Below, piece by piece: positions 17,404-33,091 of a DNA stretch of 64,000 bases; position 1 is the stretch's first letter; the number at the start of each line of letters is the position of its first letter. The notes under the pieces are model-generated. The model did no database searches. It saw nothing but the letters and a program-made list of their open reading frames with translations, and had not been told where the DNA came from. The stretch comes from Deltaproteobacteria bacterium (GTDB lineage Bacteria > Myxococcota_A > Polyangia > Polyangiales > Ga0077539): contig CANJUR010000020.1 of assembly GCA_947477565.1 (NCBI GenBank), positions 1-64,000 of the forward strand, in the 5' to 3' direction. Position numbers and translations under genes: made by a program.

Positions 17404-19659
17404 TCAGCGCAAAGCGCAGGCGAGGGGGATCGCGCCGATTCGGAGTTGCGGGGACCCCTGGGCAAAGGCCAGCCAGGGCTCGTCGCCGCACGTCACGATC
17501 GAAGCGTAGTCCAGTCCGCCGAGCACCCAACGAAGCGCGCGGCCCTCGCCACCAGCCTCAAGCAGATGGGGAATCAGCACGCCATCGCTCGCTCGCGTCA
17601 CCGTCGCGACCACGGCGTTGTTGACCCCGAGTGCGATCATCTGACCGTGCCCGTCGTGCTCGATCTCTCGCGCGGTGGCATCACCCCGCGGCGGAATCTC
17701 CAGCACCACCACTGCACCGTGATCCTGGCACTCGGCGCCGTCGCATCCGTGGTCTCTCGGGCTCGCGACCGTAGCGAGAAATCTACGCGGAGAACCCGCG
17801 GTGCCCGTGCCCAGGTTTGCGAAAGAAATCGTGCCTACCGGTGCCACCCACGGCGCCGAGCGTTGCAACACCTGCGACGAGAGCTCCCGCATCGCCGTGC
17901 CGACACGGAGGGACTCCCCGCCACCGTCCGCAGTGCCGTTGTCGGTGCGGCCGCCATCGACCGCGTTGGTGACGGCTGACGAGAGGCCAGCGAGGGTGTT
18001 GAGCGGGAGCGAAACCGCCGTGAAGGTGTTGCCACCGTCGAGCGATTGGCGGAGGAGCAGCGTCGCAGGATCTCCGGGAATCGCCGCTACGACCGCGCCC
18101 TCGGCAACGAGGTACACGGTCGCGATGCGAGGCTCGTCGTTGCGGTGCGCGGCGAACTCGACCACCGCCGCGCGCTCGCGCCCATCGCTCACGAAGGTCG
18201 TGCCGATCCATGCGCCGGTGGCGTCGGCGCGGAGCAGGAGGGCGCCGCGAAACGACCCCGCGGAAAGCCCCGGCGTGCTGGTGGAGATGCGCTGAACCTG
18301 CTGGTCGATGCGCGCGAGGCCGAACACCGGGCCGGTGCGGGAGATCCACGTCGTCCACCCAAGCGGACCCGAGATGGAGGTGCCAGCCTCCAGTACCCCA
18401 TCAGCTACGACCGTGGTGTGCTCCGCGAAGCGGGTGCCGCGCGCGCTGCGACGGTGACCGAGAACGAGTGTGCCATCGACCAACGCCAGCACGGCCACCT
18501 GCTGGGCATCGCCCAGGCACAACGATCCAAGGCCCGACGGGGCGGCGCCGACTGCCACGGATCGCGGCGGTGCCAATGGCTCGTCGCCACAGCGGGTCGG
18601 AACGGACACGCGCACACGCTCTGGAACGCCGCCATCGCCCGTCGGTCCTCGGCCCGTGAGCGTGACGATCGCGGCGGTGGCCAGAACGGCCATCGCAACA
18701 GTTGCCGCAGCCAGCATCCGTCGCTGCCTCGCGATGGATTGGGACAGCACCGCCGGAGGAGCGTTGAAGCGGGAGGTGAGCGGGACGTCTGGGTCGCTCA
18801 GGGTCGCTGCAGCGGGGCCCAGTGCGAAGGTGCTGGAAGGCTCGGTCGAAGCGTTGCCGCGATCGACGACTTCGTTCGTGGAGGAGACGGCCGCGCTGCC
18901 GACGGCGGTGAGCTTGCTACCGGAAATGCGGCGCGGAGGCTCGTCGATGAGTTGGCGAATCGCGTTGGCGAGCGCGAGGCCCGACTGCAGTGCCGGATGA
19001 TCGCCCGCGCGCGCGCAACTGCGAATCAGCTCCCACCGCACGACTGCAGTTCCATCGAGACGGGCGCCGGTGCGCTCCATCGCGGCATGCAGGGCCAGCG
19101 CGAGGCCGGCGAAATCTGCCCGCGGGTTGGGACGGGGCCGGGAGGCACCGAAGCGCGCGGCAGCCTCGATGCCAAAACCCGAGAGGCCAAGCCGCTCGGA
19201 GCCGCGGTCTTCGATGACGAGCAGCCTCTCGATGGTGATGGCGCCGTGGATGATGCCGACGGCGTGGAGGTTGTTTAGCTCCTCGGCGAGCGGCGCAAAC
19301 CACGCGACCAGGGATCGCAGCGCAGCGCGACGGCGCTCATCGACATCGCCGGAGAAGAGTAAGGCGAGGCGCTGGGTCAGGAGCGTCGGATGGAGCTGGC
19401 AGAAAATCGCGACCGGCAGCCCGAGGGAACTCCGCACGACCTCGTCCGGGCGGCGGTAGATCCGACTCGCGGGAATCGCGGATAACTCGCTGCGGAGCGC
19501 CTCGAAGGGGCCCGGTGCGAGCGGCGTCGCGAGCAGACATTGCGCGTAGGAGATCGTCCCCTGCGCGTCACGAACCTCGTGCAGTACATCGGACTGTGCC
19601 GGGTCAATGGGCATCAGCACGAAGTACCGGCCGCCAAACTTCTCACCGACGCCGATCAC
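17404..19659 (-). CDS. Membrane pseudokinase with C-terminal extracytoplasmic domain (copy A)
   Basis: From a GTG preceded by GGGAGAGA, the 751-residue protein has a kinase-like N-terminal domain (1-240), a disordered linker, one membrane helix (about 314-336, MLAAATVAMAVLATAAIVTL) and a beta-rich ~410-residue C-terminal part. The kinase fold is clear from the helical lobe (FAPLAEELNNLHAVGIIHGAI), but the catalytic HRD reads HGA (138-140) and DFG reads GFG (161-163). No VAIK-type lysine is recognisable. It should bind rather than phosphorylate. The C-terminal half, with motifs like LGDAQQVAVLALVDGTLVLG, may be a beta-propeller. Paralogue of the gene just upstream. Confidence 0.75.
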   Translation of the reverse strand: MIGVGEKFGGRYFVLMPIDPAQSDVLHEVRDAQGTISYAQCLLATPLAPGPFEALRSELSAIPASRIYRRPDEVVRSSLGLPVAIFCQLHPTLLTQRLALLFSGDVDERRRAALRSLVAWFAPLAEELNNLHAVGIIHGAITIERLLVIEDRGSERLGLSGFGIEAAARFGASRPRPNPRADFAGLALALHAAMERTGARLDGTAVVRWELIRSCARAGDHPALQSGLALANAIRQLIDEPPRRISGSKLTAVGSAAVSSTNEVVDRGNASTEPSSTFALGPAAATLSDPDVPLTSRFNAPPAVLSQSIARQRRMLAAATVAMAVLATAAIVTLTGRGPTGDGGVPERVRVSVPTRCGDEPLAPPRSVAVGAAPSGLGSLCLGDAQQVAVLALVDGTLVLGHRRSARGTRFAEHTTVVADGVLEAGTSISGPLGWTTWISRTGPVFGLARIDQQVQRISTSTPGLSAGSFRGALLLRADATGAWIGTTFVSDGRERAAVVEFAAHRNDEPRIATVYLVAEGAVVAAIPGDPATLLLRQSLDGGNTFTAVSLPLNTLAGLSSAVTNAVDGGRTDNGTADGGGESLRVGTAMRELSSQVLQRSAPWVAPVGTISFANLGTGTAGSPRRFLATVASPRDHGCDGAECQDHGAVVVLEIPPRGDATAREIEHDGHGQMIALGVNNAVVATVTRASDGVLIPHLLEAGGEGRALRWVLGGLDYASIVTCGDEPWLAFAQGSPQLRIGAIPLACALR

Positions 19660-19688
19660 GGAATCTCTCCCAGCAAGAGGGGTTGCGC

Positions 19689-21989
19689 TCACTGCCGTGG
19701 GGTCAAGCACTCCGTCGGAACCGCGACGATTCGTGGCGTCGGCTCGGACAGCTGCAGTCCCACCCAGATGCCGCCGCCGCAGCGGACGAGTCGTGCGCGA
19801 TCGGCGCCGGGGTTCACCAGGGTGGCGTTTGTTGGGACCGCGCCCGCTACGGTGCTCAGGCGCAGCGCGGGGTGTGCCGCGACGCCCGCGGGCTCGTGCA
19901 GGACAAGCCAACGGTTGGGCGCCTCGGCGAGCATGTCGAGGGCGACGGATTCGCTCGCCACGGTGACGTCTAGCGGCGCTGGGCGGGCCTGGTTGAATCG
20001 CAGCAGGTGCACCGCGCCAGGGCTGACGCAGCGGGCCCTGGAGGCGCACTGCTCGGCAGGTCGCGCTGGGCCCAGGGTGACCACGAAGCCCGCCTCGTCG
20101 CCGAGGGAGGCGCCGGTCGTCGTCGCGGCGAGCACCTCGCCCGTGAGCAACACTGGCGCGCTGCGGCGAACGGCGTTGTCGGCGGGCGTGGCGCCACGGA
20201 CGGAGGTCGGGTCGCCAGCAGGATGCGCCGCGGCGAGGAGCGCGAGTTGCGGCCAGATGGCGCTGACGCGGTGACCTTCGCCTTCGCGCTGGTGGAACAA
20301 GAGCGTCGGGGAGGGGCCTGCAATGGCGGACTCGACGGTTCCTGCACCGAGGTACCAGGTCTGGATCGACGCGCGTCCGCGAGGGTCGCCGGACTGCACA
20401 TGAAAGAGCACCGGGTGCGCGCCCCCTTCGGACTCGACGTTGCTCACAAGCCACGTCGTCGCCTGGTCACGGTGCAACAGCATCACACCCCGTAGTGGGA
20501 CGTTATCCCAGCCAGTGAGTGGGACCTGCACGTGGGCGTGCGGCGATCGGGAAACCTCGGCGAGTCCGATGGGCTCACCAACACCGTTGCGCCACACGGA
20601 CCAGAGCCCGCCCCCGGAAGCGATCGTGGCGCCGAGTTCGACCGCGCCGCTGGCGTCGGAGCTGACGAGATGCTGCCAGGGCTGTCCCCGCCTCGCCTCG
20701 CGACTGGCGGTATGAAGCACTGTTCCCTCACGAGCGACCGCGATGAGGGTGCGGTCGTCGGGTCCGCATGCGAGGTCGAAGTCTGTGGCGGCCGTCTCAT
20801 ATCCGGCCGGCGGATCGATGGCCTCACCGACACAGCGAGGTGCAGAGCGCCCACGCCTCCGACCGAGGCGCAGCATCCCGACGGAGATCGGCTCGTCGCG
20901 GATCGTCGTCAGGTAGCCTGCGCCTCCTGCGACAGCGAGGGTTGCGAGCCCAAGGCCGACAACCACACCGCGTACCCAGCTGCGAGCGGGCGTCGCGGGG
21001 GGCATCGGGGAGGTTCCGGTGGTGCTGCGCGTCGGTCGGGCACTACGGTCGGCGCGCGCGCCGGAACCTTCCTCGCGTGGGCGAGTTGCGCCGCGCGGGG
21101 GCGGGATGGTCGGGTTGCGACGTTCGCTCTCCGCCCGCGACGGCGGGGAGAGAGTTGCGTGGCGCTGCGGGCGCATGGTGGCCATCGGCGCCGAAGGCTC
21201 GAGGGAAAGCTTCGCCAACTCGGTGAGCGTCTTGCCAAGCTCGGTGCCCGAGGCGAGCGCAGGGTGTTCGCCGTGCTGCGCGGAGTGCCGAAGCAGGGTC
21301 CACTTGCCCGCCGCGCCGCCATCCGGGGCCATCGACTGGGTGATGAAAATATCGTGCAGTGCGCCAAGCAGATCGACGAGATCTTTGCGGGGCTTGGCCG
21401 GCGGCAGGTCTGCGGTGGTCTCCCGGGCGAGAGCATCGATGCCGAATCCAACCAGGAAGCAGCGCTCCACCGCAGCCCCGATGGGGCACACCACGTACCG
21501 CTGATGGATTGCGCCATGGCAGATGCCCGCGGCATGAACCCGGTCGAGGTCGGTGGACATCACCGCGAACCAATTGAGCAGTGTCGCTACCGCCGCAGGC
21601 TTGCCGAGGGCAGATACGACCTCGCCGAGCCGAGCACGCAACGGCACCAGGCCTGCGACCGCGAAGATGGCGATCGGGAGCGACGCGCGGTTCATCGTGA
21701 TCTCCCGCGGTCGCAGGAGGCTGCTGTTGGACGGCACGGCGCCGAGCACCGGACGCAGGTCCGCGAGGCGCTCCGTCGCGATGGGGGCCGAACCGAGGAG
21801 TTGGGCTGCCACCGCCGCTGCCTCGCGGTCGATCACTTCGAACAGTTCGCCGGCACGCTCCTCTTCTGGCGCTCTGGAAACCGTAAAACGCTTGCCGAGG
21901 GGGTCACCGACTGCGATCAACGAGCACGCTCCATCGAGGGAATTGAGACGCCACGCTTCACGATAATCCAGAAGCCCCTTCCGTTGCAC
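19689..21989 (-). CDS. Membrane pseudokinase with C-terminal extracytoplasmic domain (copy B)
   Basis: A 766-residue paralogue of the next gene downstream (29 bases apart) with the same architecture. A kinase-like lobe carries VHAAGICHGAIHQRYVV near residues 151-167 and FLVGFGIDA near 178-186. A long Pro/Arg/Ser-rich linker follows, then a membrane helix (GVVVGLGLATLAVAGGAGYL, ~340-360) and a beta-rich tail with Cys pairs (EQCASRARC, VRCGG). HRD is HGA and DFG is GFG exactly as in copy A, so the loss of catalytic residues is conserved, not random decay. The start is a GTG at 21989; a later start cannot be excluded. Divergent from the BMP-family gene with 47 bases between. Confidence 0.73.
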   Translation of the reverse strand: MQRKGLLDYREAWRLNSLDGACSLIAVGDPLGKRFTVSRAPEEERAGELFEVIDREAAAVAAQLLGSAPIATERLADLRPVLGAVPSNSSLLRPREITMNRASLPIAIFAVAGLVPLRARLGEVVSALGKPAAVATLLNWFAVMSTDLDRVHAAGICHGAIHQRYVVCPIGAAVERCFLVGFGIDALARETTADLPPAKPRKDLVDLLGALHDIFITQSMAPDGGAAGKWTLLRHSAQHGEHPALASGTELGKTLTELAKLSLEPSAPMATMRPQRHATLSPPSRAESERRNPTIPPPRGATRPREEGSGARADRSARPTRSTTGTSPMPPATPARSWVRGVVVGLGLATLAVAGGAGYLTTIRDEPISVGMLRLGRRRGRSAPRCVGEAIDPPAGYETAATDFDLACGPDDRTLIAVAREGTVLHTASREARRGQPWQHLVSSDASGAVELGATIASGGGLWSVWRNGVGEPIGLAEVSRSPHAHVQVPLTGWDNVPLRGVMLLHRDQATTWLVSNVESEGGAHPVLFHVQSGDPRGRASIQTWYLGAGTVESAIAGPSPTLLFHQREGEGHRVSAIWPQLALLAAAHPAGDPTSVRGATPADNAVRRSAPVLLTGEVLAATTTGASLGDEAGFVVTLGPARPAEQCASRARCVSPGAVHLLRFNQARPAPLDVTVASESVALDMLAEAPNRWLVLHEPAGVAAHPALRLSTVAGAVPTNATLVNPGADRARLVRCGGGIWVGLQLSEPTPRIVAVPTECLTPRQ

Positions 21990-23100: not shown

Positions 23101-23991
23101 TTACCGACGGAGGTCGCGGAGAAGCGCGCGCTCAAGCGTGGCGAGGCCCGTGGATGCGTCGGCAGGAGACCCGCGCCTCGCCCCGCGGACGGCGGCAAGC
23201 ATCTCGGCGCCGCCCATGGCCAGCGCGGCCACTCCGATGGCGTTTCGCTGCGCGGGGAGGTCGAGCCAGCGTCGCACCACGGCACGCGCCGCTCGAGCGC
23301 GCAAAGGGGAATCAACAGTCCACCGGGGGCCCGATCGGGCCCAGCTCGCCGTCGCTTCCGCGAGGCCGCTCGCAAGCGCCGACGCGTAGGCCGGGTCGCG
23401 CGCGCTCTCGAGTCGCGCCACCATCCATGCGTTGGCCTCCGGGCTGGCGCAGAGTCCGAGCGCGGCTGCCGCAGCGTCGCCCTGTGGGCCTGTGGCGCTC
23501 TGGAGCGTCCGACGGTCGCTGTCCTGGCAGACGCGGGCGAGGCCGCGGGCCGCAGCGCGAAGCTCCGGGGCCTCGGTAGCGGTCGCGAATACACCACGGA
23601 GTAAAGGCAGAGCGCGGGCGTCGCCGAGGTTGCCCACCGCTTCGAGGAGCCCCTGGCGCAAGGCCGATTGCTCCTCCGCCGAGAGCGCGCGGGGAAAGCC
23701 GGTGAGCGCGAGCGCGTCGAGCATCGGGAGCAGTGCTGTTGGCCCCATCGCGCGCAGTTCGAGGGCCACGGAGGGGCGGCCCGCGCGAGTGCGGCGGTAG
23801 GACTCCGGGCGCAGGCCGTCGAGGTCGGCGATGCGGCGATAGGCTTCGGGTTGGCGCGCGCGGTCGATTCGCACCGCAGCGGCGAGTGGGCGAGAGACTC
23901 CCGCCGGGACGGCGCGCGGATCGAGGAGCGGTGAGGCGTCCGCGAGGGCGGGGACGAGCGAGAACGACAGGATCGCGAGCGACAACTTCAT
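23101..23991 (-). CDS. Secreted HEAT-repeat-like protein
   Basis: A 296-residue protein with a signal peptide (MKLSLAILSFSLVPALADA) and helical repeats typical of HEAT/PBS-lyase-type scaffolds: LLPMLDALALTGFPRALSAEE, LGDARALPLLRGVFATATEAPELRAAARGLARV, GDAAAAALGLCASPEANAWMVARL. No catalytic motif. Its ATG overlaps the stop of the arginine-deiminase gene (ATGA), so it is the last gene of a five-gene coupled operon and may scaffold or regulate its products in the periplasm. Confidence 0.7.
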   Translation of the reverse strand: MKLSLAILSFSLVPALADASPLLDPRAVPAGVSRPLAAAVRIDRARQPEAYRRIADLDGLRPESYRRTRAGRPSVALELRAMGPTALLPMLDALALTGFPRALSAEEQSALRQGLLEAVGNLGDARALPLLRGVFATATEAPELRAAARGLARVCQDSDRRTLQSATGPQGDAAAAALGLCASPEANAWMVARLESARDPAYASALASGLAEATASWARSGPRWTVDSPLRARAARAVVRRWLDLPAQRNAIGVAALAMGGAEMLAAVRGARRGSPADASTGLATLERALLRDLRR

Positions 23992-25817
23992 CGGGTGACC
24001 TCCCACCACGCTCCGTGCGCGGGGATTCTTCGGAGCGCGTTGGTGCCGCAGTGAACCTCGCCTTCGGCAGCGTGGAGGATCTCCCACTGCTCGGCGAAGT
24101 GCGCCGTGATGCCCTCCGCGCGGAAGAGTTGGCTCAGGTAGGTTTGCATGAAATCGGTGCCGCCAACGAGCGCCGCGTGGGGCTTCGCCATCGTCACCGA
24201 ATGCCCGTAAAGAAGCAGATTTACGGTGCCAGGCATGTACGCAGCGCCCTGTCCGTTTTCGATCTCCCACATCAAGAAGGGAATCTCGATGATCTCTTCG
24301 TCGGTCAGCCCGGCCTCGGTCTGGAGGGCCTCTCGCACCAGGTCGATGTGAGCCTGGTCGCGCTGGTTAAACGCCATCAAATCCGTGTCCCCGAGGATGC
24401 TGTTAATGGTGCGCGTCGCCGAGTAGGCGCGGCCCGCCATCGCGCTGCCCCGCGGGTAGAACCACCGCTGGCCTTCGAACATCAGCCGATCGCCGTTGGC
24501 GGGGTCGGTCGCGACCATCGCCTGGAGCTGCGCGCGGGCGGCGCGGGGCGATGCGACCAGGAGCTTCCATCCACGCGGTGAGCTCACCGGGATGAAGCTC
24601 GCGAACTCATCGACGTGGCCGACGTGCAGCCAGGAGGTGTCGAGCTCCAACACGGGGCCTTGCACCCGTTGGGCGTTGAGGAAGGCCCGTAGTTCGGGGT
24701 CGCTGCTGCGGGTGGCGACGTTGCCGTGGAAGATGCGGCCGAAGGGGTGGCCCGCGTACGGCGGGATGACCTCGAGGTTGCCAAAGGAGTCGAGGCTGGG
24801 ATCGTGGGCGCGCGTCGCGGGGTACGAGTCCTCGTGGTGCCAGGTGTACCCGTGGTCGGGACCGACGAAATCACGGCGGGTCCAGGCCGCGATCGCTCGA
24901 TCGACCCGGGGGGTGCGGAGTACGACGTTCATGCCCTGAGGGGCGTCGCCGCCGGGCATCGAGGTCCAGCCGAGCTCCATGTAGTCCTGTGTCCAGACGT
25001 CGGGACCGCGGTTGGGCTGGCTCCACTCCGGGTCGAGGCCGTCGATGGTCTCGAACTCCATCCGGTCGTCGGTGGTGATCGCGTCCATGTCGTTGATGAA
25101 CCGCGCCAACGAGACGATGCCACCGCCGCCCGTGGCGTAGACTCGCGTCGCCTCATCGAGGGAGGTGCTCACCACGAAGGGCGCCACACGCATCACCACA
25201 TGGTCGTCGCCGATCGCCTCTGCGCCATGTGTCACCGCGAGCGCCAGCGTGATCTCGCCCGGCCATGTCGGCGTGGGAAAATCGCTCGACTCCACGCCCA
25301 GCTCCACGCCCGCACGCAGGTCTGCAGTGGACAGCGTTTCCCCCTCCAGATCGACGCGCCGCCACACTCCTTCATCGAGGCGAAACACCCGCACCGTCGG
25401 CGTCGTCGGCCCGGTCAGCGTGAGCCGTCCGGTCGCGCCCTCCACGAGACCCGCGATCGCTGCGACGTGCACCCGCGCCAGGTCGAGCGCGTCTCCGTCG
25501 CCGTTGACCACATCGTCCGCGCCGTCGAGCGTGTCGTCGTCGTCGTCGTCGTCCACGTTGGCGAGAAACACCGCGCCGTGCGCTGCGCTCCAGTCTGCGC
25601 GGAAGGTCTCGTCGTCACCGGTGTCGGAGACGGTTCCGTCGCGATTGGCGTCCACCCGCAGCCGCACTCGCGGTGGCGCGGGGACATCGACGACCGCCGT
25701 GTCTCCTCCGGCATCGGCGGCGTTGATGGGGGGTGCCGTCGCGTCGTCGCCGCAGCCCGCGAGGAGCGCGCCGAGCGTCGCGATAAGCCATCGAGGCCGT
25801 GTCTTGAGTACGATCAC
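23988..25817 (-). CDS. Lipoprotein protein-arginine deiminase (PAD family)
   Basis: The 609-residue protein (GTG start, n-region KTRPR, lipobox LLAGC with Cys22) is a close match to the catalytic domain of animal peptidylarginine deiminases, which turn protein arginine into citrulline in a calcium-dependent way. All four catalytic residues are in family motifs: Asp278 (VWTQDYMELGW), His401 and Asp403 (VGHVDEFASFIP) and Cys590 (GEVHCGTNALR). Other PAD signatures are DSFGNLEVIPP, LFEG-like LMFEGQ, and PGTVNLLLYG. The N-terminal region has a VDANRDGTVSD calcium-loop-like motif and a run of seven Asp. It lies in a coupled operon with a SIS protein, cytochrome c and a HEAT protein. A TTG 12 codons upstream is an alternative start. 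Confidence 0.92.
   Translation of the reverse strand: MIVLKTRPRWLIATLGALLAGCGDDATAPPINAADAGGDTAVVDVPAPPRVRLRVDANRDGTVSDTGDDETFRADWSAAHGAVFLANVDDDDDDDTLDGADDVVNGDGDALDLARVHVAAIAGLVEGATGRLTLTGPTTPTVRVFRLDEGVWRRVDLEGETLSTADLRAGVELGVESSDFPTPTWPGEITLALAVTHGAEAIGDDHVVMRVAPFVVSTSLDEATRVYATGGGGIVSLARFINDMDAITTDDRMEFETIDGLDPEWSQPNRGPDVWTQDYMELGWTSMPGGDAPQGMNVVLRTPRVDRAIAAWTRRDFVGPDHGYTWHHEDSYPATRAHDPSLDSFGNLEVIPPYAGHPFGRIFHGNVATRSSDPELRAFLNAQRVQGPVLELDTSWLHVGHVDEFASFIPVSSPRGWKLLVASPRAARAQLQAMVATDPANGDRLMFEGQRWFYPRGSAMAGRAYSATRTINSILGDTDLMAFNQRDQAHIDLVREALQTEAGLTDEEIIEIPFLMWEIENGQGAAYMPGTVNLLLYGHSVTMAKPHAALVGGTDFMQTYLSQLFRAEGITAHFAEQWEILHAAEGEVHCGTNALRRIPAHGAWWEVTR
25533..25553. repeat. Seven tandem GTC triplets (Asp run)
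   Basis: Seven consecutive GTC triplets on the plus strand encode seven aspartates in the N-terminal region of the arginine deiminase lipoprotein. A trinucleotide run like this can change length by slippage without breaking the frame. Confidence 0.9.
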
Positions 25818-25849: not shown

Positions 25850-26899
25850 TCAACGAGGCTCGCGCCCTTCTTCCCCGACGTCACCGAGGGCGTACAGGGC
25901 GGCGTCGCGACCGAAGCCAGGCCAGTGCACCAGATCGCGCGGGCTGCGCGCCAGCACCGCGCAAACGAGTCGATTGCAGTGCGCGTCGAAGTCGAAGAAA
26001 CCGGTCACTCCGGCGGTGCGCGCGCGCAGCCGAAGCATCGGGTGCCCGTCGCCGACCACGGACGCCAGCCGGTCGAGCAGGGCGCTCGCGCCTGGGTCGT
26101 CGCCGGGCTCTAGCGCGAGGAGCAACCGCGGCCGTTCGAGGACGTGCTGTAGCGGGCCGTGCACCATCTGGAGCGCGTCCCAGCACGGCGGATCACAGGT
26201 CGCCGGTCCCTCCAGCCACTTCCAGCGCAGCCCGTGCGCGAGCTCGAGGCCTGGGTCGCAACTCACGATCGCCACGTGGCCCCCCGCTGCCATCGCCGCC
26301 GCGCGATCGTCGAGCGGGAAGTCTTCCGTCGGGAGTCCATCGGGCACGGCGTCGAGGTGACCTTCGAAGGGCGGCGCGTCGCCTCGTCCCTCGGCCAGTG
26401 CGTCGATGGCGCGCAAGAGCATCATGGTGGCCGCGGCGGGCCCCTGAACTCGAAGCAGCAGGCCGCTCTCCGGGCCCGGCGGATGGGCGATGATCACTGC
26501 GCCAAACGCGCGGACCGTCGCCAGCGCCGGGTGCTCCGGGCACGCCGTCACGACCATGCAGGCTGCGAAGGCCGGCGCGCGCGCTAGCGCAAGGCGGGAA
26601 TTCGGGGAGATTCCCTGGCTGATCACCACGAGGACGGCGCTCGGATCGGTGACGTCCGCGGCCCGCTCCGGAGCGAAGGCCGAAAGCGGAACAAACTCAG
26701 CGCATGCGTGCAGGTGCCTTCGGAGGAGCGCGGCGAAGATTCGGGCGGGGCCTTCGGAGGCGCCCGCGCCGGTGATGATCCAGCGGGTACGGTGGGCGAT
26801 GGAGCGCAGCGACGGTAGCGGCGTCGCGAGGGTGGCGCGCAGCACCGTGGGCACATCGGCGCAGCGCTGGCGGAGTAGCTCGAGGCCGTCGCTGTTCAT
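25850..26899 (-). CDS. SIS-domain protein
   Basis: A soluble 349-residue protein with the sugar-isomerase (SIS) fold. WIITGAGASEGPARIFAALL near residues 38-58 is the phosphosugar-binding loop, VLVVISQGISPNSRLALARA near 90-110 has the Ser-rich loop, and MVVTACPEHPAL follows. A second, weaker SIS-like half includes VAIVSCDPGLELAHGLRWKWLEG. That double layout resembles GlmS/AgaS/FrlB-type isomerases and deglycases, but no glutaminase domain is present. Its ATG overlaps the upstream stop (TGATG), and the PAD gene starts 32 bases after its stop. Substrate unknown; the operon context does not point to amino-sugar metabolism. Confidence 0.78.
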   Translation of the reverse strand: MNSDGLELLRQRCADVPTVLRATLATPLPSLRSIAHRTRWIITGAGASEGPARIFAALLRRHLHACAEFVPLSAFAPERAADVTDPSAVLVVISQGISPNSRLALARAPAFAACMVVTACPEHPALATVRAFGAVIIAHPPGPESGLLLRVQGPAAATMMLLRAIDALAEGRGDAPPFEGHLDAVPDGLPTEDFPLDDRAAAMAAGGHVAIVSCDPGLELAHGLRWKWLEGPATCDPPCWDALQMVHGPLQHVLERPRLLLALEPGDDPGASALLDRLASVVGDGHPMLRLRARTAGVTGFFDFDAHCNRLVCAVLARSPRDLVHWPGFGRDAALYALGDVGEEGREPR

Positions 26900-27783
26900 C
26901 ACGGTCCAGCGTCGGGGCGGGCGTCGGGGTCGTGCTTGCGCAGGGCCATCGCGCGAAGATAACCGAGCAGCCCGTCGAGGTCGGCTTCGCTCAAGTTGGG
27001 GTGCGGCGGCATCGCGCCGTAGCGAAACGTCATCGGGTTGCGGATGTACGCGCGAATCTGCTCCTCTGGGCGGTACTCGGTGATGTTCATCGGGACGTTG
27101 AGCTCTGGGCCCACACGGCCGCCCTCGCGGTTAATCGCGTGGCAGCGAATACAGAGGTCTGTAAAAATAACGTAGCCCCGACGGGCTGTGGAGCCGTCGG
27201 GTTCGCCCGCGGGCGTCGTGTGCGGAAACACCGTCTCGAAGCGCGCGACCTCGATGGCGGCGAGCTGCCACGGGCGGGGGTGCGTCTCGAGATCGACCTG
27301 CGACGACTCGCGCCACACGAGGTAGGCCGGGCCGGGGTTGGCGCGCTGCGGGCCGATGGGTTCCCAGCCCGGGCGATCGAGGTCGCGCACTGCGAGGTAG
27401 GCACCGGCTTCGAGCAGGCGCTCGCCGCTGATGGGCACCGTGTATCCGTCCCGCGCACGCAGTACAAACTGCAGCGTTCGCAGGGGCTCTTGAACGATGC
27501 CGCCGAAGCCCTCGGCGAGGACGCGGTCGAGTCGCAGCGCGCGGAAGCGCTTCGTGCGGTGGTAGTAGCCGTCGAAATTCTCGACGGTCTCCGGGGCGAC
27601 CCGCGCGGTGAGTTCGCCGAGGGTGAGCACGCGCACGGTGCGCCCCTGAACCCGAAACTCGAGGCGCGCTGCGGGCTCCTCGGCGAGCGCATCGGGGCCT
27701 GCGTCGAGGGTGATGACGGCGGCGGGGCGGTGGCTGCACGCCGCGAGGAGCAACGCGAGCGCTGTGACGGGGCGGTGGCTCAC
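26899..27783 (-). CDS. Lipoprotein monohaem cytochrome c with N-terminal domain
   Basis: The 294-residue protein (GTG start overlapping the upstream stop as GTGA) has a lipobox LLAACS with Cys16. Residues ~40-185 form a beta-rich domain (FRVQGRTVRVLTLGELTARV, LQFVLRARDGYTVPISGERLLEAGAYLAVRD) reminiscent of the small molybdopterin-oxidoreductase-type fold but without a visible cofactor Cys. A cytochrome c domain follows with haem motif CIRCH at 211-215 and a distal Met at 258 (YGAMPPHPNLS). The end, ADLDGLLGYLRAM, is typical of class-I cytochromes. It likely carries electrons at the outer-membrane/periplasm face, with an unknown partner. Confidence 0.85.
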   Translation of the reverse strand: MSHRPVTALALLLAACSHRPAAVITLDAGPDALAEEPAARLEFRVQGRTVRVLTLGELTARVAPETVENFDGYYHRTKRFRALRLDRVLAEGFGGIVQEPLRTLQFVLRARDGYTVPISGERLLEAGAYLAVRDLDRPGWEPIGPQRANPGPAYLVWRESSQVDLETHPRPWQLAAIEVARFETVFPHTTPAGEPDGSTARRGYVIFTDLCIRCHAINREGGRVGPELNVPMNITEYRPEEQIRAYIRNPMTFRYGAMPPHPNLSEADLDGLLGYLRAMALRKHDPDARPDAGP

Positions 27784-31050: not shown

Positions 31051-31192
31051 GTCGCGCAGGATGCGCCGGGGGTGTGGCGTCGGGGAAGCGCTCCACCGCT
31101 GTGCTGACCTCGGCGTGGCCGGGCGCAACTCGGGATTGACCGGGGTGCGGAGGGGGGGCGAGACTCCGCAAACGGAATTGGAGGTTCATGTG

Positions 31193-33091
31193 ATGGTTCG
31201 TTGGTGGCGGCTCCTTGCCGCAGGAGTCGCTCTGGGTGCCTTGGTGAGCTGTTCGTCCGAGAGCAGCGGAGGGCCGACCTGCAATCCACCCCAGACGGCG
31301 TGTGGTGCCGCGTGTGCGGACATCTCGTCTGATGTGCGCAACTGCGGCGCTTGCGGGACGTCGTGTGGTACCGGCGAGCGTTGCGTCTCGGGTCGGTGCC
31401 TCTCCCCGTGCGGCGACGACCAGACCTTCTGCGGCGGCCAGTGCGTTGACCTGCAGACCAGCCAGGCCCACTGCGGCGCCTGCGGGACGGCGTGTGCAGC
31501 GGGCACCCTCTGCTCCGAAGGCGCTTGCGTGCTCACGTGCCCGACGGGCGCCACTCGCTGCGAACTCCCGGCCGGCGCCGGGGCCGTCTGCGCCAGCGTG
31601 ACCAACAATCGCCTGCACTGCGGTGGCTGCAACCGGCCCTGCGGCGCAGGCCAACTTTGCGTCGCAGGCGTCTGTCGCACCGGCTGCCCCATGGGTCAGT
31701 CCGCGTGCCTCGATCGCTGCGTCGATCTCTCCAATGACAACGCCAACTGCGGCGCGTGTCGGGCTACCTGCTCGCAGGGGTTCTCCTGCTCGGCAGGACG
31801 CTGCCGTCTCGCGGAGTGCCCGGCCGGCACGATGGCCTGTGGTACGCGCTGCGCCGACGTGCAGACCGACCGTGACAACTGCGGTCGTTGCGGCATGGCG
31901 TGCCCGCCGAGCAACGTCTGCAACGCCGGCGTGTGCGCCGCCGTCTGCGCGACCGGTCAGACCCGCTGCAGTGAAGACTGCGTCAACCTGCAGACCTCGA
32001 CCGCCAACTGCGGCAGGTGCAACGCGGGTTGTCTCAATGGCCAGTTTTGTCGGGCTGGGATGTGCGTGCGCGAGTGCAGCCCGGGCCAGACGCTCTGCAG
32101 TGATCGTTGTGTAGACATCACCACCGATCGGGCACATTGCGGCGCGTGCGCGACCGCGTGCCCGGCGCTCCAGGTGTGCGCGGGCGGCGCGTGCGCGACC
32201 ACTTGCGCCACGGGGCAGACTCTCTGCGGAAGTGTGTGCACTGTGACCGCTGCAGACCCCGCGAACTGCGGCGCCTGTGGCACTGCGTGTACCAGTAGCC
32301 AGGCGTGCGTGAGCGGGGTCTGCACTGCGGTGCTCTCGACGGATCCGTTCTGTCCGACGCCGAGCGTGCGGTGCGGTGCGGTCTGCACCGACGTGCGGAG
32401 CGACAACGCCAACTGCGGCATGTGCGGGATGGTCTGTGCGGCCAACCGATACTGCGCCGCGGGCGCGTGTGGTCCGCCCTGCGCGGCTGGGCAGGCCCGC
32501 TGCGGGGCGCTCTGCGTGGTGACCGCGACCAGTCGCGATAACTGCGGCGCTTGCGGCAACGCGTGCTCGGCGACGCAGACCTGCACTGCAGGAGCATGCG
32601 GTTGTCTGGTCGGGCAGACCGCGTGCGGGACGGCCTGCGCCAACCTCCAGACCGACCGACTCAACTGCTCGGCGTGCGGCATGGCCTGCGCCGCGGGGCT
32701 GTTCTGCGTGCGCGGCGCCTGCGGAACGATGCCGCCGCTCTACCACGGGTGGGCGTCGCCCATCGCCGACTGCACTACGGCTGGATACAACACGACGGCG
32801 GCCACCAACCTCGGCGGGACGTATCCCTTCAACACCGGCGACACCGCGGCGTGTCGCGCCTGGAAGCTCGCCGCCACGATCTGCACCACGGAGCCCGTGG
32901 CGTACTTCGGCAACGACAACTGGCAGTGCGCCGCCTCGGGTGGTTTTACCGACCCGGTATTCGGAACGTACTGCGCGGCTGCCAACCAGTTCTCCTGCTC
33001 GACCTGCCCTGCTGCCTGCAACGCGGGCGCTTGCCGTGGCGGTTCCAACACTCTCCGTAACTGCGGCGGCTCCGAGACCGCCCAACTGTGA
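31193..33091 (+). CDS. Stig1-like cysteine-rich repeat lipoprotein (copy A)
   Basis: The ATG at 31193 follows GGAGG. The 632-residue product has a lipoprotein signal (GALVSCS lipobox) and at least eleven repeats of about 35-45 residues. Each has the form C-x3-C-VD-x-N/H-CGACG-xxC followed by G-x-x-C-xxG-xC (MXAN_6577/Stig1-like). Every repeat keeps its Cys count, implying a rod of small disulphide-bonded modules. The last ~120 residues form a different domain starting MPPLYHGWASP and ending RNCGGSETAQL. It is probably anchored in the outer membrane and surface-exposed, as adhesin or matrix component. A tandem paralogue follows. Confidence 0.85.
   Translation: MVRWWRLLAAGVALGALVSCSSESSGGPTCNPPQTACGAACADISSDVRNCGACGTSCGTGERCVSGRCLSPCGDDQTFCGGQCVDLQTSQAHCGACGTACAAGTLCSEGACVLTCPTGATRCELPAGAGAVCASVTNNRLHCGGCNRPCGAGQLCVAGVCRTGCPMGQSACLDRCVDLSNDNANCGACRATCSQGFSCSAGRCRLAECPAGTMACGTRCADVQTDRDNCGRCGMACPPSNVCNAGVCAAVCATGQTRCSEDCVNLQTSTANCGRCNAGCLNGQFCRAGMCVRECSPGQTLCSDRCVDITTDRAHCGACATACPALQVCAGGACATTCATGQTLCGSVCTVTAADPANCGACGTACTSSQACVSGVCTAVLSTDPFCPTPSVRCGAVCTDVRSDNANCGMCGMVCAANRYCAAGACGPPCAAGQARCGALCVVTATSRDNCGACGNACSATQTCTAGACGCLVGQTACGTACANLQTDRLNCSACGMACAAGLFCVRGACGTMPPLYHGWASPIADCTTAGYNTTAATNLGGTYPFNTGDTAACRAWKLAATICTTEPVAYFGNDNWQCAASGGFTDPVFGTYCAAANQFSCSTCPAACNAGACRGGSNTLRNCGGSETAQL

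Follow-up and report, generated by a model that had tools for sequence, protein, structure and literature searches.

A predicted lipoprotein of the protein-arginine deiminase family is encoded next to a HEAT-repeat protein throughout Myxococcota

The window analysed here, a stretch of 64,000 nucleotides from a Deltaproteobacteria bacterium (GCA_947477565.1, contig CANJUR010000020.1), carries a gene for a protein-arginine deiminase (PAD) that runs on the minus strand from a GTG at 25817 to a TGA at 23988 and encodes 609 aa. The original prediction had located the gene correctly at 23988–25817, to which the minus strand has to be added. The product matched the Pfam PAD family (PF03068) with an E value of 8.2e-77 and 259.2 bits (cut-off 25), over protein residues 203–606 and profile positions 3–395 of 395, i.e. 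the full catalytic domain. Its relatives in the PDB were, best first, human PAD4 (E 4.8e-50), PAD1, PAD3, PAD2, and PAD6. The identification as a PAD, in agreement with the family assignment made earlier, is far beyond chance. The predicted catalytic tetrad was likewise found in place: D278, H401, D403, and C590 align with D350, H471, D473, and C645 of PAD4 and are unchanged across the window PAD and three close homologues (L003–L005). Both motifs that had been pointed out (VGHVDEFASFIP and GEVHCGTN) are present in the sequence. A scan with Pfam to an E value of 1 gave no further citrullinating-enzyme family and no PPAD-type domain, consistent with the claim that the enzyme is different from the PPAD of Porphyromonas gingivalis. 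That enzyme represents a separate family, since among PAD families the window PAD matches only PF03068 and, weakly, PF08527 (PAD_M; residues 51–148, E 3.6e-4, under its cut-off). What the two may share is secreted protein citrullination by a bacterium, described for PPAD (PMC9174705) and predicted for the window PAD.

The N-terminus of the window PAD, KTRPRWLIATLGALLAGC, reads as a lipoprotein signal. It comprises a charged n-region, a hydrophobic core, and the lipobox LAGC22 followed by GDD, as expected of a type II signal peptide (25752–25817, minus strand), and it is aligned in L003–L005. The lipoprotein nature proposed for this protein is thereby borne out as far as the letters go. A strict lipobox rule was passed by 68 of the 86 Myxococcota PAD ORFs that we collected and by none of three actinobacterial ones, against a background of 46 of 527 decoy ORFs; a relaxed rule added nine. 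Many members of the family combine a putative lipoprotein signal with long low-complexity linkers.

For the assignment of calcium sites we used the ligand numbers of PAD4 and the discussion of the PADI2 sites in PMC8826395. By alignment, all Ca1 ligands are kept (Q349, E353, F407, L410, and E411), as are most of those of Ca3–5 (N153, D155, D157, D165, D168, D176, and D179, with E170 replaced by Val), which fall in a PAD_M cluster of the form NVDDDDDDD...DD...GD..DLA (25479–25562, minus strand). W347 and the calcium switch residue D388 are kept as well, the latter within GPDHGY, with Gly there in L005. The Ca2 ligands (E351, D369, S370, and N373) are not conserved; Y279 stands at position 351 and, depending on the alignment, R/T or V/V at 369/370. 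Structure prediction for the PAD by AlphaFold, with four close sequences as input, reached a mean pLDDT of 37, and the calcium sites are thus assigned by sequence alignment only. The ligands kept make calcium binding probable, in line with the calcium dependence that had been suggested. In addition, the EF-hand-like stretch D56-A-N-R-D-G-T-V-S-D65 (25623–25652, minus strand) corresponds in position to calcium site 6 of PADI2 and partially matches its description in PMC8826395.

The same paper divides PADIs into three-domain (animal and late cyanobacterial) and two-domain enzymes (fungi and other bacteria), and ascribes to the fungal and actinobacterial ones a Gly in place of D389 and a triple-His linker (PMC8826395). 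Judged by its sequence, the window PAD fits neither type cleanly. Its layout is that of the actinobacterial and fungal two-domain enzymes: PAD_M is weak and below cut-off, Pfam found no PAD_N, Cys22 being separated by only ~28 residues from the PAD_M match that starts at 51, and Ca2 is not conserved. Unlike them, it keeps D388 and has no triple-His linker; the PAD_M–PAD_C linker (VVMRVAPFVVST) instead contains the animal-like VVMRVAPFVV (VxxRVAP). With the three-domain enzymes of animals and cyanobacteria (human PAD1–4, cyanoPADI) it shares this linker, the catalytic D/H/D/C, W347, Ca1, most of Ca3–5, and D388, whereas PAD_N, conserved Ca2 ligands, the lipoprotein signal, and a HEAT-repeat partner gene set it apart from them. 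The three actinobacterial copies that we analysed had no detectable lipobox and no HEAT partner, and one of the three had an HHH linker. As worded, the label animal-type is only half supported, given the absent PAD_N, the unconserved Ca2 ligands, and the position of human PAD4, which groups with another Myxococcota clade in a tree without cyanobacterial sequences (see below).

Directly downstream of the PAD gene lies a gene for a HEAT-repeat protein of 296 aa with a predicted Sec signal peptide (23101–23991, minus strand). The PAD stop and the partner start overlap in an ATGA (23988–23991, minus strand), and a GGGAGG is found just upstream, within the last PAD codons. Pfam HEAT_2 matched the window partner weakly (17.0 bits, cut-off 27.7), and five of five scanned homologues exceeded the cut-off. 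AlphaFold models the window partner as a repeat made up of helices throughout (mean pLDDT 72.7), and a fold search with this model returned mostly HEAT-like scaffolds, with no match at E 0.001 or better. In modelled fold and in repeat sequence, the partner would resemble bacterial HEAT-repeat proteins (alphaRep designs, CpcE/NblB-like), from which it differs by its signal peptide, an N-terminal loop arginine, and the linkage to a PAD; NCBIfam scores were all far below cut-offs. Signal-peptide-like N-termini were seen in 79 of 79 partners, by a rule that also passes 151 of 527 decoys, and five of the 79 are lipoprotein-like. Both genes are under purifying selection, with dN/dS values for the PAD of 0.11/0.50, 0.12/0.62, and 0.14/0.62 against three relatives. 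The partner was overlooked in the original prediction and is the strongest clue to the function of the PAD.

Upstream of the PAD gene, an uncharacterised gene with no Pfam match (25850–26902, minus strand) and a cytochrome c gene, together spanning 25850–27783 on the minus strand, may be cotranscribed with it and are kept only in the three closest relatives. Further away, 31061–33091 (plus strand) encodes a protein rich in cysteine that contains eight repeats of the STIG1-like family, whose name comes from plants. Two long ORFs with no Pfam match (17404–20454 and 19689–21989, minus strand) are mutual paralogues: in both L003 and L005, the homologue of either ORF is matched by the other at ~32–35% identity.

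PF03068 was detected in 71 of 282 Myxococcota genomes (52 of the 192 good ones) and in none of 14 control genomes, and a search of phages and viral contigs for PADs found none. The window's genome holds a second PAD copy, 51% identical, and within its family six of 13 genomes have one. From 87 loci we obtained 89 PAD ORFs, 86 from Myxococcota and three from actinobacterial plasmids, leaving out five fragmentary places at contig ends (G256:C720, G218:C33, G185:C235, G139:C109, and G207:C160). Plasmid-borne PADs amounted to four actinobacterial copies, of which the three from Streptomyces/Embleya were analysed. The catalytic Trp, Asp, His, Asp, and Cys were present in every full row except L108, which reads HSGHLSE and has lost the Cys. 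The window PAD is a member of a large PAD family of Myxococcota, most of whose members appear to be lipoproteins.

A PAD tree of 87 rows, built without L089, L063, and L108 and containing no fungal or cyanobacterial rows, resolved type C (29 rows, support 100), type B (21 rows, support 99), and the clade of the window PAD (six rows, support 100). This last clade lies outside the main type A group and branches together with type B, type C, and PAD4, the three actinobacterial rows being separate in this set. Human PAD4, on a long branch, joined type C with a support of 99, in a tree without cyanobacterial sequences. Type C keeps E351 and D/N369, and mostly S370, as animal-like Ca2 ligands, a pattern that is partly by construction because membership was set by residues 351 and 369, which does not apply to the clade support of 100. 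The loci with this animal-like Ca2 that group with PAD4 are L062, L065–L068, L070, L071, L073–L075, L077–L079, L082, L084–L086, L088, L090, L093, L096, L102, L104, L106, L107, L113, L116, and L117. A candidate loss of R372 in type B was dropped, since type B reads RPWGR and the equivalence is ambiguous. According to PMC8826395, Ca2 itself occurs exclusively in the PADs of animals and late cyanobacteria. In the PADs of one Myxococcota group (L046, L048, L049, L051, and L054), the stretch from the lipobox to PAD_M contains somatomedin B domains, either one or two (E 1e-8 to 1e-17); this domain is best known from animal extracellular proteins.

The pairing of PAD and HEAT genes recurs across Myxococcota. 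Allowing partner starts up to 60 bases inside the PAD gene, and using the 527 other ORFs of the same loci as decoys, we found a partner homologue directly 3' of 79 of the 86 Myxococcota PAD ORFs (52 window-type and 27 type-C); none of the 527 decoys matched, and none of the three actinobacterial PADs had a HEAT partner next to it. In 67 of the 79 pairs, the first possible partner start lies no more than four bases past the PAD stop. The two partner families are related according to hhalign (95.3%, E 2.2e-8). Searched over the 282 genomes, the window-type profile matched strongly (E ≤5.5e-29) 53 times, in 44 genomes that each carry a PAD: 51 of these matches lay directly behind a PAD, one in a reversed locus, and one at a contig end. 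Those that followed, from E 4e-14 onwards, were partial HEAT stretches. The type-C profile gave 38 matches below 1e-30, of which 27 lay behind a PAD, two at contig ends, and nine without a nearby PAD. The phylogeny of the partners follows that of the PADs (r 0.92 over 77 pairs), as shared inheritance would also produce. The other neighbours of the window PAD recur solely in its three closest relatives, so the pair has been kept while its surroundings change.

Exceptions were found on both sides. Four of the seven PADs without a partner directly 3' lie at a contig edge (L044, L112, L117, and L118), leaving L086, L047, and L108. L086 (1806–5166) is a tandem PAD-PAD-HEAT cluster seen in one genome, and in L047 the order is reversed, with the HEAT gene upstream of the PAD. 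L108 (978–2882) is PAD-like, has lost catalytic residues, and is the only non-truncated Myxococcota copy examined without an adjoining HEAT partner. The PAD-less type-C partners (L126–L134) come from eight genomes of one genus (f33/g90) and from a second G211 locus (G211:C45); tblastn found no PAD in 12 stretches including these nine loci, L133 starting 336 bases from a contig end. The partner can thus exist without the enzyme, and the three partnerless actinobacterial PADs mean that PAD chemistry needs no partner. Overall, the PAD seems to depend more on the partner than the partner on the PAD.

A near-invariant feature of the partner is an arginine in a loop near its N-terminus, T68-R69-A-G-R72 in the window (23776–23790, minus strand). 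R69 is the sole invariant column in an alignment of 28 window-type partners, and 26 type-C partners have three invariant columns, namely the loop arginine, an aspartate, and an arginine of a HEAT repeat. Over all copies, 48 of 52 window-type partners and all 27 of type C have the loop arginine, the remaining four having an arginine one or two residues beyond the aligned column. In the model of the window partner, R69 lies in coil with pLDDT <50, between the N-terminal helix and the repeats. hhalign sets the loop arginines of the two families three columns apart, beside a gap; in our judgement they are probably equivalent. The context of the loop varies with the PAD clade: [ST]R[AY][GQ]RP in the window clade, mostly KRG[RP] in type A, mostly xR[NTK]PxP in type B, and mostly [TSN]R[ANT]G in type C, a correspondence that is suggestive only, as each clade counts as one event. 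Five of the PAD-less type-C partners (L126, L127, L128, L131, and L133) have HRG, YRG, YRN, or FRG in the loop. HEAT repeats often conserve arginines, which counts against the reading proposed below.

Taken together, the window PAD is probably an extracytoplasmic, calcium-activated lipoprotein that forms one half of a two-gene module with the HEAT protein. The counts in favour are the pairing (79/86), the decoys (0/527), and the loop arginine (48/52 and 27/27); those against are the nine PAD-less type-C partners, the three partnerless actinobacterial PADs, and the four window-type partners with an off-column arginine. We infer that the PAD is active and requires calcium and that the two proteins bind each other. 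Both would be exported, the PAD being probably inactive in the low-calcium cytosol and active outside; the partner, translated from the same message, would reach the compartment of the PAD, and both may act on one cell-envelope process. There, the partner would present a flexible arginine that has a small or turn residue after it. In the simplest mechanism, the PAD would citrullinate this arginine and thereby alter binding by the HEAT scaffold, and we tentatively propose that the loop enters the active site as the cognate substrate, its citrullination switching the charge of the scaffold. The boldest reading, to which we give a probability of roughly 0.35, is a dedicated extracellular citrullination switch of Myxococcota, in which a calcium-activated PAD lipoprotein would modify the near-invariant loop arginine of a co-translated HEAT scaffold. 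Within such a module, the loop arginine could alternatively be a pseudosubstrate.

The lipoprotein signal, the long low-complexity linkers, and the somatomedin B domains of some members, an extracellular-protein module, would also suit an enzyme that citrullinates outside proteins (of prey, host, neighbouring cells, or its own surface layer), with the HEAT protein, as a binding scaffold, presenting or recruiting the targets. We consider this possible, if rather unlikely; its targets, like the outer-membrane location suggested earlier, are candidates only, and presence in 71 of 282 genomes is, by counts alone, no specific mark of predators. More doubtful is a role of the HEAT protein in immunity or in inhibition as a pseudosubstrate, by which the cell's own envelope proteins would be protected from the PAD until release. 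Strict pairing, translational overlap, the near-invariant loop arginine, and the lack of a partner beside the catalytically dead PAD of L108 would all be expected of an inhibitor, whereas nine partners have no nearby PAD to restrain and the five lipoprotein-like ones of 79 would stay attached.

Deimination of free arginine or small peptides for nitrogen, with an incidental neighbour, could draw on related guanidine-group chemistry and on the export of the enzyme. The protein-specific PAD fold and its calcium sites argue against it, and an incidental neighbour would not persist in 79 of 86 loci with otherwise differing flanks, which makes this account very improbable. We give hardly any credence to the idea that the two genes are neighbours by inheritance alone and functionally unconnected: the trees of PAD and partner do agree as under vertical inheritance alone, but gene order decays fast here, the other neighbours being found only in the three closest relatives while the pair stays, and loss of the partner coincides with a dead PAD in L108.

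PADs form an established enzyme family, and activity is on record for bacterial members (PMC8826395, PMC9174705). A 2022 review states that nothing at all is known of what PADIs do in bacteria and fungi (PMC9174705). Compared with the 0.76% of bacterial species given in an earlier survey (PMC8826395), PADs are common in Myxococcota, with 71 of 282 genomes. In the open-licence literature we found no report of the PAD–HEAT pair or of a Myxococcota lipoprotein PAD family with a HEAT partner. Type C, with its animal-like Ca2 and its grouping with PAD4, bears on the published origin of animal PADs. A partner beside nearly every Myxococcota PAD, together with its near-invariant arginine, turns the question of function into a two-protein experiment. 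If true, the switch would be the first case of a bacterial PAD whose cognate target is known, and would give PADs a purpose that predates their transfer to animals.
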